From NCBI RefSeq assembly GCF_028693135.1, contig NZ_JAQUVZ010000029.1:1-43906 (forward strand): a stretch of DNA of 43,906 nt, read 5' to 3'. This stretch comes from Methanosarcina sp. GTDB lineage: Archaea; Halobacteriota; Methanosarcinia; Methanosarcinales; Methanosarcinaceae. Positions 25,940 through 32,242 of the stretch are shown in pieces. The notes below the pieces were generated by a model. The model saw nothing but the letters and a program-made list of their open reading frames with translations. It had not been told where the DNA came from and searched no databases. The position numbers were made by a program, and so were the translations under genes. Positions within the stretch are counted from its first letter, which is position 1, and each line of letters starts with the position of its first letter.

Positions 25940-26203
25940 TCAGGAGCCTGCCTGTTTTTCATCAGAGACCTTTTTTACGATCTTAGGAATCTTCCTGCCC
26001 CTTAAGTTTATCCCGCCTGCAAGGGCCACACCCGGAGTTTTCTTGACTAATTCGGCATAGTTGCTGTCAAGACTGGCGATAATTGTCCTTCCTGCCACCA
26101 TTTCAATTCGCCCTCCGGCCCCCAGAACCACTTTAAGGATCCTCTGGACCTGAAGGGCAGTAGCATTTTCTGCAACCTTTATAAGATGTGTTTCAATTGG
26201 CAT
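25940..26203 (-). CDS. Small conserved-looking protein of unknown function
   Basis: The 87-residue protein is not recognised. It has a compact alpha/beta pattern: a strand (THLIKVA), a helix (ATALQVQRILKVVLGAG), two strands (GRIEMVAGRTIIASLD), a helix (SNYAELVKKTPG) and a strand (VALAGGINLRG). The order resembles the peptidase-inhibitor I9 or ferredoxin-like fold, but there is no supporting motif. The basic tail RKIPKIVKKV follows. It starts 16 bases after the PASTA gene and is the last gene of the four-gene operon. Its Shine-Dalgarno is weak (GCAGGT). Confidence 0.65.
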   Translation of the reverse strand: MPIETHLIKVAENATALQVQRILKVVLGAGGRIEMVAGRTIIASLDSNYAELVKKTPGVALAGGINLRGRKIPKIVKKVSDEKQAGS

Positions 26204-26218
26204 CGAAAAACCTGCAGA

Positions 26219-27766
26219 TCAAAGTTTAAGCCTGGATAGAGTACTTCTGCGCAGTTGAGTTTCAGGCGCCTGTTTTGAGACCACAAGATTGATCGGGACC
26301 GACAGGTTTACCGCAGAACCGGCCCCCGGATTCTGGCTTATGACTGTTCCCGCAGCCCCCGTCGAAATAGCTTCCGAAACCTTTCCGACCTTTATCCCCT
26401 GAGCCCCGAGTAAAGCGACCGCCTTTTCAAGATACATCCCGGTTACACCCGGAACTAATTTAGACTCCTGCTTAAATGGTTCTGAAGGTACACTGGCAGA
26501 AGTTTCACGGGATACTTGAGATGTGGTTTCGGACTGCAGCTTCGAGGGAGTTTCGAAAGAAACTTTATTTACTGTTTCTTTTACAACAGCTTCGGGAAAG
26601 GTCCGCAAGGGTTTTCCAGGCACCACTTCCTTTTCTCCAGCTGAAACGACAAGGTCAACCTTTGAATTTGCCTCAACTTCAAGCCCGGGTTTGAGGCTCT
26701 GAGTAAGTACAATTCCCTGTTTTCCACTTGAGAGCTGCTCCTTTATCTCACCCGGCTGGATCCCGGACTTTTCTATGACTTGCTTTGCACTCTCAAACTC
26801 AAGCCCGAGCAGGTTTGGGACTTTGTAGACCTTTGTAGAAACCGTCAGGACAATTGCAGAGTTAACTTCGACTTCCGAATCCGGATTGAGGTTCTGGGCA
26901 AGGACTGTACCCGGGTTTTTGTCTGAAGGCTTTTCTTTGACCCCTTCAAGCCGGAGCCGTGATTTTTCAAGGAGGGCTTTTGCGGTTTCAAGCCCGAGTC
27001 CCACAAGGTCCGGGACCTTTACGGAAAGAAGCCTGGAAATTGTAAGATCCACAGCTGCCTTCGGTTCTGCAAGGGAGCCTCCCGAGGGGAGCTGGGCTAT
27101 GACCGTACCCTGAGGCGTCCTGCTTTCTTTTTCAAGGATGTCTCCTGCCTTAAAGCCCGATTCAAGCAGTTTGCTTTCGGCTTCTTCTTTTGAGAGCCCG
27201 ATAAGGTCCGGAACTTCCTTATAAGAGCCAATACCCGGCTTATCGGACACCGCTTTTAGAGAGAATTCTATTGTGCTGAGGTTTTCGGGGCTGATGATGT
27301 CATCGGCTTTTGGCATCTGGAACCTCAGTTCCCCCCCCTCGAGAGCGATATTGGTCTTTAAGGTTACATTCATATTACTTACAAGGTACTTTGGACCGGA
27401 CTGCACTTTCTTAAGACCTTTGTCCATTTCTGCAAGCGAGGATGCAAAAGAGCTAACAAGATTTGAAGACGAGAGGACAGGCCTGTTTTTCTGCAAAATG
27501 GAAATCCGAGATTCAAGGTCTGCCTTCTCATTTGAGAGCTTTGTCACCTGCGCAGCAAGGCTGCTCTTTTCCCGTTCAAGGACGAGTTTTTCCCCGAGAA
27601 GCTTGTCCAGATTTTCTTTATAGACAAGGACTTCCTTTTCCACGGATTCAAATTCGATTTCCGTATCCTTCAGTTTAGTCATAATGCTTGAATAACTGCT
27701 GGCATCTATTGTCCCTGCTTTCCTGAAGACGTCCAGGCTGCTCCTGAGTTCGCTTATATTCTTCAT
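26219..27766 (-). CDS. Coiled-coil protein with four PASTA domains
   Basis: The 515-residue protein has an N-terminal helical/coiled-coil part (about 1-100, ending SRISILQKN), a beta-rich domain (about 125-172: PKYLVSNMNVTLKTNIALEG, then FQMPKADDIISPENLSTIEFSL), and four PASTA repeats: VPDLIGLSKEEAESKLLESG (about 183-245), VPDLVGLGLETAKALLEKS (about 250-310), VPNLLGLEFESAKQVIEKSG (about 315-375) and VPGVTGMYLEKAVALLGAQG (about 440-500). A Ser/Thr/Glu-rich linker separates the third and fourth. There is no signal peptide, membrane helix or kinase domain, so the usual role of binding peptidoglycan is not expected. AGGAGGAA lies before the ATG. It is the central gene of an uncharacterised operon. 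Confidence 0.9.
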   Translation of the reverse strand: MKNISELRSSLDVFRKAGTIDASSYSSIMTKLKDTEIEFESVEKEVLVYKENLDKLLGEKLVLEREKSSLAAQVTKLSNEKADLESRISILQKNRPVLSSSNLVSSFASSLAEMDKGLKKVQSGPKYLVSNMNVTLKTNIALEGGELRFQMPKADDIISPENLSTIEFSLKAVSDKPGIGSYKEVPDLIGLSKEEAESKLLESGFKAGDILEKESRTPQGTVIAQLPSGGSLAEPKAAVDLTISRLLSVKVPDLVGLGLETAKALLEKSRLRLEGVKEKPSDKNPGTVLAQNLNPDSEVEVNSAIVLTVSTKVYKVPNLLGLEFESAKQVIEKSGIQPGEIKEQLSSGKQGIVLTQSLKPGLEVEANSKVDLVVSAGEKEVVPGKPLRTFPEAVVKETVNKVSFETPSKLQSETTSQVSRETSASVPSEPFKQESKLVPGVTGMYLEKAVALLGAQGIKVGKVSEAISTGAAGTVISQNPGAGSAVNLSVPINLVVSKQAPETQLRRSTLSRLKL

Positions 27767-27803
27767 TCCGTTCCTCCTGAAAGAGCATTTCCTGAAAAGA
27801 GCC

Positions 27804-28208
27804 TTATTCCTCCCTCACCTTTGAAGAGGCAGGAATGGACACTATTTTTGCTTTGATGCAGCTTGAGCCCTGCACATCGTAACTGTAAAGAGAGTTGTAA
27901 GAGGCATTAAGGGGAGAGGCGTTGAGGACAGATCTGTAGCCCCTTACCCGATTTTTAGAGTCCCTTTCTTCTTCAAGTTTCACAGTAAGCGACATTTTGA
28001 GCTCAAGGTCAACCTCAGGGATATGATACCATGCAGCCTGAATATCATACTCACTGAGGGCTTTTTCTTCATCAATCTCTATCTGGGTCTTTATGGAATT
28101 CAGGTCAAGAGTCCGCTGAGTTTCAGCAACGGACCGCCCTACTTCTCCCAGAAGCCTGGAAAGGGGGGTAATAAGTACTTCTCCGATTTCTTCCCCGTCA
28201 TTAACCAT
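27804..28208 (-). CDS. DUF2589-like protein, short paralogue
   Basis: The 134-residue protein shares an architecture with the next gene upstream: an N-terminal helix (TPLSRLLGEVGRSVAETQRTLDLNSI), a beta-strand region (EVDLELKMSLTVKLEEERDS), and a C-terminal NASYNSLYSYDVQGSSCIKAKIVSIP. The pattern, especially the helix followed by an ALDMNS/TLDLNS motif and the final NAxYxSxYSY strand, resembles DUF2589 proteins; this is my reading and not a database match. No signal or membrane segment. AAGGAG is well placed. It lies between its paralogue and the PASTA gene in one operon. Confidence 0.7.
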   Translation of the reverse strand: MVNDGEEIGEVLITPLSRLLGEVGRSVAETQRTLDLNSIKTQIEIDEEKALSEYDIQAAWYHIPEVDLELKMSLTVKLEEERDSKNRVRGYRSVLNASPLNASYNSLYSYDVQGSSCIKAKIVSIPASSKVREE

Positions 28209-28399
28209 AATAACAACTCCTTGAAATAAGTCCTTGAAATAAGTCCTTTAAAGGGTATAGAAAAATACGGCAGAATATTTAGCCTGCAAAAAGGGTAATT
28301 AGAGCTTTATCTGCCGCAACTACGGTCAGGTTCCCCGATATTTTAAGAGACCCTTCCCGTAGCAAGAATATTTTATTGAAGGCTTTAGTCAAGACGTAT

Positions 28400-29005
28400 T
28401 CATTCCCCGATCTTAACCGTCACCTTTGGAATTGTCCTCTCAGGAGCAGGGACAGGCTTGAGGGTTGTCCTCAGCAGGCTTGTACCTTCTTCCTTAAAGG
28501 AATACTTCGAACTGTATTTTGCATTAAACGTGGAGGTATAGGCAACGCTTGTCGTGTTTTGAAAGCTCCCCTTGCTCTTTCCGAAGAGGATTTTTGCAAG
28601 CCCGCCGGACTCCATACTGCCAGTGACCTTTGACTCATTGCTTAACTTGAATTCATTGCCATAAGTGAGCTCTGTGGAAGACTCTCGCATCATGGTGATT
28701 GTCATCTTAACTTCGATAATCGATTCCGTAAATTCGTAGAAACGAGGCTCAAGCCCGTAGGTAAGAAGAGACATCGGCTTGTCATTGGTAACCACACTGC
28801 TCGCTGTGACATTGCCATCAGCATCCGTGGTCTCTTCAATATACATTACAACACTTCCGGCATCAAGCTGGGTTGTTGCAAGAGTCTGGGCAACTTGCAC
28901 AGAATTCATGTCCAGAGCCATCTGCCCCTCTGCAATCGCAAGGGCCATTTCTCGAATCATGTCCCCAAAGGGAACATTCAATAGTTCCTGACCAACACTT
29001 ACCAT
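28400..29005 (-). CDS. DUF2589-like protein, long paralogue
   Basis: The 201-residue protein begins MVSVGQELLNVPFGDMIREM, then ALAIAEGQMALDMNSVQVAQ, an N-terminal helix very like that of its downstream paralogue. A middle segment (FYEFTESIIEVKMTITMMRE) forms beta strands, and the end STFNAKYSSKYSFKEEGTSLL matches the paralogue's last strands. It is a good candidate for DUF2589, a family without assigned function. No membrane helix, signal or catalytic motif is visible. It is the first gene of the four-gene operon; GGGGA precedes the ATG. Confidence 0.7.
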   Translation of the reverse strand: MVSVGQELLNVPFGDMIREMALAIAEGQMALDMNSVQVAQTLATTQLDAGSVVMYIEETTDADGNVTASSVVTNDKPMSLLTYGLEPRFYEFTESIIEVKMTITMMRESSTELTYGNEFKLSNESKVTGSMESGGLAKILFGKSKGSFQNTTSVAYTSTFNAKYSSKYSFKEEGTSLLRTTLKPVPAPERTIPKVTVKIGE

Positions 29006-30051: not shown

Positions 30052-30294
30052 TTACAAAATACTTATTACATGATAAATAATTGTCAAACTGAATACTAAC
30101 AACAATGGCAAAATTCCCATATTTAAAGAACTTTCTAGATATTCCTCCCAGTGATCTGATCCTGAAAGTACATATTTAAAACTAAGAAGTAAACCCAATC
30201 CGACTAAAGCCATATTATAGTAATCTGGGAGACCGCATACCATATTCATAATAATTGTACTTGATGATGTAGTAGTGATTATGCTTGAAAACAT
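30052..30294 (-). CDS. Small two-helix membrane protein
   Basis: An 80-residue frame with two hydrophobic stretches, MALVGLGLLLSFKYVLSG (about 28-45) and MGILPLLLVFSLTIIYHVISIL (about 59-80), joined by a short polar loop SDHWEEYLESS. No family is recognised. The N-terminus is Ser/Thr-rich. It stands alone between the dead transposase and the CPBP protease gene. Coding status is likely but not certain; no strong Shine-Dalgarno is visible. Confidence 0.5.
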   Translation of the reverse strand: MFSSIITTTSSSTIIMNMVCGLPDYYNMALVGLGLLLSFKYVLSGSDHWEEYLESSLNMGILPLLLVFSLTIIYHVISIL

Positions 30295-30485
30295 AAAATC
30301 TCAGCTCTTTTATAATTAAACGTTTATTATAGTTAGTGGTATGTACAATAAATTAGTCATCTTTAAGAAAATACAGAATACAAACTGAAATCTGCTTGTT
30401 TGCTATTTAAGTCTGCTTTTTAGTTTATACGAACAGTGATCAACTTAAGAGAATGTTGACTTCTTTTTAGAAACATTGGGTATAG

Positions 30486-31358
30486 TTAGAATATTCCGAG
30501 GCCATGCCCCAAATAAGGGATAATTCCGAAGGAAAATACGCTTATAAAGCCATGTACTAATGCAATGAAAGGAAGACTTCTTGTTCTATAGAACAAATAT
30601 CCAATTATAAATCCTGTAAAGGATGCATATAATATTTCATATGGAGATCCAAAACCGGAGTTCATGAGCCCGAAAATCAGGCTTGAAAGGACCAGACCAC
30701 CCCGTAACCCGAATATTCCCTCAAGTCTTGTCTGGAGGATTGACCTGAATAAGAGTTCTTCAGTAATCCCGACAAAGAAAACCATTACAACTGTAAGCTT
30801 TAAGATATTTATGAAAGAAAGATCAGGGATAAGTGGGGTTGTTTGCATGATAAACGATTCACCCTGCCCCAAGATAAAGCCAATAATAATTGACACAGGA
30901 AGATAATACCATATTTTTTTGAAACTCAGCCCTAACTGTTCATATGTAAACTGTTGACGAGTTATAATGACGGTCAAAGGAATTATCATTGGTATGTAAA
31001 TGTACTCAAAGGAGATAAGAGAATAATCAGGGAATGTAGGCACTGAAAAGTTGATAATGCGGAAGATTGGGAGTAACAAGAAGACTTGGCAGATGTTTCG
31101 AATTTCTTTCTCTTTTACGAATATGGAGATAAGAGATAAAGCTACCAGTATACCTGCATACAACAAGAGAGCAATTTTAATTTCTCCAGAATAAATCAAC
31201 GATTCGGGAAGAACAACTAGAAGAAGAAGAACGCCTGCAAGGGCTTCTCTACTCTGATACTTTGAATTTTTATGTTGTACTTCTGGATTTTCTGCTGATT
31301 TCCCGAAAATTGTGGTTTTTTCCCCGAAGTTTGTCATACTTAATTTCTCCATATTCAC
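30486..31358 (-). CDS. CPBP-family intramembrane protease-like protein
   Basis: The 290-residue protein has about eight membrane segments and matches the CPBP (Abi, CAAX protease/bacteriocin-processing) family. Motif 1 is present as EELLFRSILQ (Glu200, Glu201, Arg205). Motif 2, normally FxxxH, reads FGLMN, so its histidine is replaced by Asn233. Motif 3 is present as ALVHGF (His269). The missing ligand raises the question of altered or lost activity. It overlaps the DUF1616 gene upstream by four bases (GTGA), so the two are translated together. An ATG two codons later (31352) is an alternative start. Confidence 0.88.
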   Translation of the reverse strand: MNMEKLSMTNFGEKTTIFGKSAENPEVQHKNSKYQSREALAGVLLLLVVLPESLIYSGEIKIALLLYAGILVALSLISIFVKEKEIRNICQVFLLLPIFRIINFSVPTFPDYSLISFEYIYIPMIIPLTVIITRQQFTYEQLGLSFKKIWYYLPVSIIIGFILGQGESFIMQTTPLIPDLSFINILKLTVVMVFFVGITEELLFRSILQTRLEGIFGLRGGLVLSSLIFGLMNSGFGSPYEILYASFTGFIIGYLFYRTRSLPFIALVHGFISVFSFGIIPYLGHGLGIF

Positions 31359-32242
31359 TTTGCCTCTGATACATTTATCCAGAGATGAAGGTCTCGATAA
31401 GGGATATTCTTCTCGCTTTCATTGTAAAGCAGGAACCCGAGTTTCATATTATTTCCTTCGAACGAAGGGGCAATCGTAACTGGTTCTTCCCAGGTCTCGT
31501 TATGGTCAAGGCTTACTTGTCTTTGGTTTTCCGGAAGAGGAAGAGATCGGTTTTGAAGCCTTACTTCCATTGTGTAGTTTACAAGCCTGTACTCGTGGTT
31601 TACGATTCCAACAATTACTGTACCATTCTCTCCGAGTGTGTAGTTTGTTGGGTAATTGTCAGCCATCCCTTCAGGACCGAGAATATATAACTCAGTGCAG
31701 TGCTCTTCCTCTTTTGGGGTAACAACTACATAAAAAAGTGTTGCGACCGAGAGGAGTATTGAGAGGCCCGGGATGATCGTAACAGTTTTATCCAGCTTTG
31801 ACTCGGACTTATCCAATATTTCGTCTTTGAGGGAAAGTGTCATTTCCCTGAATGGCACTTCGAAAGCATCGGTTTCAGGGAGTTTTGCTCTTCTCAAGTA
31901 AGTAAGTACGCACATGAAAAAGGCGAGTCCGGACAGGCTGATCAGGATTGGTAGAAGCCGAATTCCCCAGGGGGTGTAGTTGAGTCCAAGCCCTATGAGG
32001 GGTATGACTGCAATACTAAGCCTGAAGGAAAGAGCGGTTCTTTCGATTCCATCAAGGTCGGATCTTGCAGGAAAGAGTGCAGCAATCAGGGCATACCCTG
32101 GAAGGAAAAGCACAAGAGGTAGCCCAAGTACTGCCCGGATAATAGTTGCGCTAAGTGAAGGAATAAGGACGAATGTATTGGCCAGTATTATAAAGATTAT
32201 TATGAGCAACAGATCAGAAGAAAGTTTCCTACGTTTTAACAT
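31355..32242 (-). CDS. DUF1616 membrane protein
   Basis: The 295-residue protein has four membrane segments in its first half (LLLIIIFIILANTFVLIPSL; AVLGLPLVLFLPGYALIAALF; LSIAVIPLIGLGL; LLPILISLSGLAFFMCVLTY), the DUF1616 pattern with the LPGYAL block. A fifth segment (SILLSVATLFYVVV, about 178-190) is followed by an exported beta-rich domain with likely N-glycosylation sites (NYT, NGT, NRS). DUF1616 proteins are widespread in archaea and often lie near surface-glycan or protein-sorting genes; their function is unknown. A box A (ATTTATAAAG on the minus strand, 32301-32310) fits as its promoter. Confidence 0.88.
   Translation of the reverse strand: MLKRRKLSSDLLLIIIFIILANTFVLIPSLSATIIRAVLGLPLVLFLPGYALIAALFPARSDLDGIERTALSFRLSIAVIPLIGLGLNYTPWGIRLLPILISLSGLAFFMCVLTYLRRAKLPETDAFEVPFREMTLSLKDEILDKSESKLDKTVTIIPGLSILLSVATLFYVVVTPKEEEHCTELYILGPEGMADNYPTNYTLGENGTVIVGIVNHEYRLVNYTMEVRLQNRSLPLPENQRQVSLDHNETWEEPVTIAPSFEGNNMKLGFLLYNESEKNIPYRDLHLWINVSEAK

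Follow-up and report, generated by a model that had tools for sequence, protein, structure and literature searches.

A conserved Methanosarcina operon encoding two paralogous short proteins and a coiled-coil protein with PASTA domains

The stretch of DNA analysed here (the window) comprises positions 1-43,906 of contig NZ_JAQUVZ010000029.1 from Methanosarcina sp. and carries, at positions 25940-29005 on the minus strand, four co-directional genes that we refer to as A, B, C and D. An initial annotation, made from the sequence by itself, had described these genes as an uncharacterised operon of two DUF2589-like paralogues, a coiled-coil protein with four PASTA domains and a small alpha/beta protein, and had proposed that the products form one cytosolic assembly. 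We find that A, B and C constitute the core of a gene set that recurs across bacteria and archaea, with the fourth gene belonging mainly to one branch of it.

The operon and the families of its proteins

The features of the operon are as follows, in window coordinates:

28400-29005, minus strand: gene A, 201 amino acids (aa), DUF2589 superfamily by profile comparison; beta strands following a long N-terminal helix (residues 13-44)
28217-28222, minus strand: strong Shine-Dalgarno-like AAGGAG of gene B, 9-14 bases upstream of B (sequence)
27804-28208, minus strand: gene B, 134 aa, paralogue of A by profile comparison
27773-27778, minus strand: strong Shine-Dalgarno-like AGGAGG of gene C, 7-12 bases upstream of C (sequence)
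26219-27766, minus strand: gene C, 515 aa, coiled coil, Trypco2-like core and four PASTA domains
27488-27703, minus strand: C residues 22-93, coiled coil whose length differs among species (AlphaFold2 (AF2) model and alignment)
27248-27469, minus strand: C residues 100-173, conserved core domain, helix and four strands (AF2 model, profile comparison)
26642-27217, minus strand: C residues 184-375, PASTA 1-3 in tandem (Pfam and AF2 model)
26477-26626, minus strand: C residues 381-430, predicted disordered linker (AF2 model; predicted local distance difference test, pLDDT, < 50)
26267-26467, minus strand: C residues 434-500, PASTA 4 (Pfam and AF2 model)
25940-26203, minus strand: gene D, 87 aa, small alpha/beta protein

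The two strong Shine-Dalgarno-like sites precede the middle genes, exactly as first annotated, those of A and D are weak, and the genes are spaced by 191 (A-B), 37 (B-C) and 15 bases (C-D). The motifs LDMNSV/LDLNSI and NAKYSSKYSF/NASYNSLYSY, previously noted as a shared helix and closing strand of the two short proteins A and B, are present and conserved. Neither a signal peptide nor a membrane helix was found in A-D, with the maximal 19-residue hydropathy lying between 0.71 and 1.23 across the four proteins, and all of them look cytosolic, in agreement with the original proposal. In case of A, B and D, nothing useful was returned by Pfam, NCBIfam, PHROGs or PADLOC, and a PDB sequence search with their profiles retrieved PASTA structures for B only. 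The four PASTA domains of C are clear (Pfam E 1.7e-53; 178.8 bits versus a curated cut-off of 23.2, in four stretches) and, together with the coiled coil, bear out the initial description of this protein. The AF2 model of C (mean pLDDT 85) predicts one helix and four strands for residues 100-173: the "beta-rich domain" of the initial annotation does exist, but is actually the conserved, Trypco2-like part of the protein. A strong match of C to PADLOC PD-T4-6 was rejected, as it covers the PASTA domains only.

The relationships between these proteins were analysed by profile comparison, and all hhalign E-values are those of single comparisons. Using wide alignments, A matched B at 99.8% and E 2e-27 (reversed control 0.11), with the match retained at 98% and E 2e-13 for Methanosarcinales sequences only, which identifies the two short proteins as paralogues, as had been supposed. 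Comparison of A with DUF2589 (PF11655) gave 96% and E 6e-9 (reversed control 0.23), collinear over the whole domain, identifying A as a remote DUF2589 homologue. The earlier label "DUF2589-like" is thus upheld for A but not for B, which stayed below significance (hhalign E 0.006), and neither window protein matches the DUF2589 Pfam model even at E 1; among 64 A homologues this model is matched by two, at best with 9.3e-4. Many archaeal DUF2589 genes are arranged as tandem pairs, each with a C-like gene as the third member: this third gene matches the core of C (89%, E 2e-6) in Archaeoglobus-type loci, and that of a haloarchaeal DUF2589 operon carries helix-hairpin-helix (HhH)/DUF4332. Given this C-like third gene, the A/B/C operon belongs, as one branch, to a wider system that also takes in the DUF2589 operons. 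No PASTA domains were seen in those DUF2589 operons that were examined. The AF0414-AF0417 region of Archaeoglobus fulgidus, which by comparison with related genomes would correspond to a DUF2589 pair plus third gene, is up-regulated on lactate (PMC3949148); no other expression data were found.

The core of C matched Trypco2 (PF19631) at 83% and E 9e-6, with 0 of 60 column shuffles reaching half the score and the same helix-plus-beta order in both, which identifies this core as a remote Trypco2 homologue. Window C is not matched by the Trypco2 Pfam model itself, no PF19631 match was obtained in the genome at E 0.01, and Trypco2 was likewise not found when the phylum to which the actinobacterial locus described below belongs was searched. 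Trypco2 has been described as an adaptor domain of conflict systems (PMC7159879, PMC10907252). An initial match between B and C was rejected as evidence of core homology, since the PASTA tails had been included, and D proved unrelated to the other families and served as negative control. As a separate observation, a Methanosarcina genome of 5.8 Mb encodes, next to a subtilisin-like TPR protein, a protein with two Trypco2-like repeats (L175:1213-1758).

Distribution, conservation and arm domains

Full-length A is present in 21 of 60 relatives in addition to the window genome, giving about 22 Methanosarcinales genomes in which the order A-B-C is kept with D last, with few exceptions; B was found solely where A, or a remnant of it, is present too. 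The operon adjoins, in several genomes of Methanosarcina, the ribosomal L3/L4 genes, as it does in the window, and the between-species similarity of A and B is about that of L3/L4 next door. The ratio of non-synonymous to synonymous substitution rates (dN/dS) is 0.07-0.12 for A and B, 0.18-0.29 for C and 0.11-0.21 for D: the genes are under purifying selection and, given the conserved order in about 22 relatives, the operon is not a chance arrangement.

Starting from the A alignment only, a scan covering 84,980 species genomes returned 78 loci, of which 45 (L089-L133) encode more distant A proteins, lie outside Methanosarcinales and span about a dozen bacterial and archaeal phyla. The bacterial hosts are Aquificota, Alphaproteobacteria (Elioraea, Ruegeria and others), deltaproteobacterial groups, Firmicutes, Fibrobacter, Spirochaetes, WOR-3, Actinobacteria, Bacteroidales and Hydrogenedentota, and the archaeal ones Methanocalculus, Methanophagales, Methanomassiliicoccaceae, Methanimicrococcus and Nitrosocaldus. 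Profile searches place B- and C-type genes next to A in nearly all 45 loci, and since the scan had used A alone, these neighbours represent an independent test of the gene set. Most of the seeming gaps can be accounted for: the middle gene of Rhodobacteraceae was recognised as C by profile comparison (87.7%, E 3.4e-6, 0 of 25 shuffles), a 111-aa gene of Nitrosocaldus gave a weak B/C-like signal, L116 has no B and lies near a contig end, and L117 has no C among the open reading frames (ORFs) called. Co-occurrence elsewhere, on which the initial annotation had made its proposal depend, was therefore found in about 22 Methanosarcinales loci and 45 outside them; the four-gene unit as first drawn does not hold strictly, the core being A/B/C. 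D is mainly a feature of one branch, that with Methanosarcinales, Aquificota, Elioraea and Methanocalculus among its members, is also present in one actinobacterial locus, and is located upstream of A in bacteria and last in Methanosarcinales.

A maximum-likelihood tree of 97 A proteins broadly separates three branches. Branch I (Methanosarcinales, Aquificota, Elioraea and relatives) has D and carries PASTA, sometimes DUF4332/HhH, on C. Branch II (Firmicutes, Fibrobacter, Methanimicrococcus and others) has two A paralogues, PASTA and HhH on B, and a bare C that is followed by a disordered protein and then TPR genes; in Firmicutes-type loci the B homologue is fused to DUF4332/HhH plus PASTA. 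Branch III (Rhodobacteraceae, WOR-3, Spirochaetes, Nitrosocaldus and others) has no PASTA. Methanimicrococcus is a member of Methanosarcinaceae, and its grouping with branch II suggests that its copy was acquired by transfer. Branch II operons sometimes extend into large proteins (L106, L165, L170, L174, L114), among them an N-acetylmuramoyl-L-alanine amidase, a 2492-aa protein with a HEIAHL motif and other large uncharacterised proteins.

PASTA domains are textbook extracellular cell-wall sensors, and those of C resemble the PASTA domains of PrkC, PknB and PBP2x in predicted structure (Foldseek E 8e-15), with the PASTA tails of B homologues matching PrkC and PknB in sequence. C differs from these kinases and penicillin-binding proteins in that it has no kinase or transpeptidase Pfam domain and no membrane helix (hydropathy maximum 1.23) and is apparently cytosolic; among the homologues, too, no clear signal peptide or membrane helix was seen. 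In most genomes C bears 0-4 PASTA domains, with C proteins free of any PASTA being common. Two Methanosarcinaceae bins (L057:932-5512, L059:659-5511) encode a second C of about 1500 aa just upstream of the operon; the complete giant C has 1526 aa, a lengthened coiled coil, 14 PASTA domains and no evident export signal. Counting the loci that have both B and C, arm domains (PASTA/HhH) occur on C only in 39, on B only in 15, on both in 0 and on neither in 8, with two short C proteins in the last class perhaps truncated.

Possible roles of the encoded proteins

The reading that we favour, with a probability of roughly 0.5, is that the operon's products make up a cytosolic hetero-oligomeric scaffold or adaptor of helix-plus-sheet subunits with a variable arm. 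A, B and C's core probably represent related modules in which a small beta sheet comes after an N-terminal helix; most likely they co-assemble via their helices into a complex, the helix of C being extended into the coiled coil. The arm (0-14 PASTA domains, or HhH/DUF4332) would project from this core and bind an intracellular partner or act as a spacer, its bearer being C in one branch and B in another; D would be a branch-specific accessory subunit. An arm that is interchangeable between B and C is what would be expected if both sit in one assembly. As the PASTA count varies from 0 to 14, these domains are not the core function and their number appears to behave like a length setting: the spacer role first proposed for them fits both this range and the B/C swap, but an optional element cannot supply the core activity. 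The invariant columns contain no catalytic-looking residues, which favours a structural or adaptor role, and A, B and C presumably have no enzymatic activity.

Several points weigh against the scaffold reading. Direct hhalign comparisons of A with C and of B with the core of C were not significant, so common descent of all three proteins depends on the links through Trypco2 and the third gene of DUF2589 operons. The AF2 model of A is not confident (pLDDT 62; predicted template modelling score, pTM, 0.42): the long helix at residues 13-44 is reliable and strands are predicted, with a poor middle part. Because branches I and II are clades, the exchange of the arm between B and C is essentially one swap between them and not 54 independent cases, and a single locus (L130, left out of the arm-domain count as its C is too divergent) combines PASTA on C (2.3e-9) with sub-threshold PASTA on B. 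Finally, many Methanosarcina genomes have no operon or hold decayed copies which, together with two insertion-broken copies described below, indicates that the operon is constrained yet dispensable: its role is not essential.

An explanation that we consider unlikely is that A, B and C are adaptors of a conflict or defence module, sensing an invader or damage and signalling to an effector as proposed for Trypco2 beside trypsin-like peptidases in VMAP ternary systems. The remote homology between the core of C and an adaptor domain of conflict systems (PMC7159879, PMC10907252) speaks for this, as do the patchy distribution, the mixing of phyla in the A tree, the copies broken by insertion sequences and the loci that run on into an amidase, a lipase-like or a HEIAHL-motif protein. 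However, there is no constant effector, nuclease, ATPase or peptidase neighbour, most loci lie among housekeeping genes, A and B evolve slowly (dN/dS about 0.08), unlike arms-race proteins, and the PADLOC matches of C arise via PASTA and coiled coil only. Unlike in VMAP ternary systems, A/B/C were not seen to be accompanied by trypsin, MoxR or vWA genes: the maps of the window and of about 20 related loci, read by eye without a domain search of every neighbour, revealed no MoxR ATPase, vWA, VMAP or peptidase genes. A phage origin is unsupported, as tblastn found no phage record with B.

We likewise give little credence to a self-assembling particle or filament with A, which is often duplicated, and B as the major subunits of a shell, tube or fibre and C as tether or length-setter. 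Paralogous small subunits with a long helix and strands, the duplication of A in the Firmicutes-type branch, the variable length of coiled coil and PASTA (up to 14 repeats) and the lack of catalytic-looking residues would all suit such a structure, but no match to known particle, filament or tail proteins was obtained in PDB or PHROGs; a Foldseek search of the A model against PDB gave no match either, the model being too poor for an informative fold search. It is very unlikely that A/B/C organise a nucleic-acid-linked complex in which HhH/DUF4332 binds DNA or RNA: DUF4332/HHH_5 is indeed carried by B or C across many lineages, as well as by the third gene in the haloarchaeal DUF2589 operon, but HhH also mediates protein contacts and is missing from the window and from most Methanosarcina, Methanolobus, Aquificota, Elioraea and Rhodobacteraceae copies. 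We hardly credit at all the idea that these are cell-wall proteins which leave the cell by a non-classical route and whose PASTA domains bind wall material in the manner of PknB/PBP2x. The resemblance of the PASTA domains of C and of the B-homologue tails to those of the cell-wall proteins is offset here by the absence of export signals described above and by the frequency of PASTA-free C, and Methanosarcina is not known to have peptidoglycan.

Returning to the scaffold reading, a broader version of it is tentative and in our view rather doubtful: A/B/C and DUF2589 operons together would represent an unrecognised class of intracellular machine, with three homologous core subunits and an interchangeable PASTA/HhH arm whose length is tuned by repeat number. 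If this is true, PASTA domains would have a role that has nothing to do with the cell wall. What is new is the system itself, its domains either being known or having relatives among known families of unknown function. No system of this composition was found in the family libraries or open-access papers searched (subscription literature being outside this scope), including an open-access search for PASTA with Methanosarcina or archaea, which is consistent with the initial suggestion of an undescribed system. The gene set extends across two domains of life and evolves in Methanosarcina about as slowly as ribosomal proteins, yet is dispensable; no family model exists for three of its four proteins, it ties together two unexplained families, DUF2589 and Trypco2, and it places PASTA inside cells without peptidoglycan. 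Homologues in culturable hosts (Methanosarcina, Methanolobus, Ruegeria, Elioraea and Youngiibacter) make it directly testable.

Flanking genes and disrupted copies

Upstream of the operon, the window contains at 30052-32242 an 80-aa ORF, a gene for a CPBP/Rce1-like protease (30486-31358) and a DUF1616 gene (31355-32242) that overlaps the protease gene; the 80-aa ORF and protease are syntenic in L028. The same pair of CPBP protease and DUF1616 genes recurs in genome G025, which has an intact operon beside L3 and also, at a distance of about 35 kb, A and B remnants beside this pair (L031 and L053 being the two loci). In the window the pair flanks the other side of the operon; in G025 an insertion may have led to duplication of the operon end. 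Two further copies are disrupted: in G008 a TnpB-type element truncates A with B, C and D remaining open (L049:6154-7368), and in G019, a Methanosarcina bin, a transposase-bearing insertion splits gene C (L034:7424-8690). G022, a Methanosarcina genome without the operon, encodes a divergent 309-aa A-like protein (L052, frame -1), whose C-terminal part is apparently Ig-like, together with a weak B-like ORF, and these are perhaps another branch of the system.

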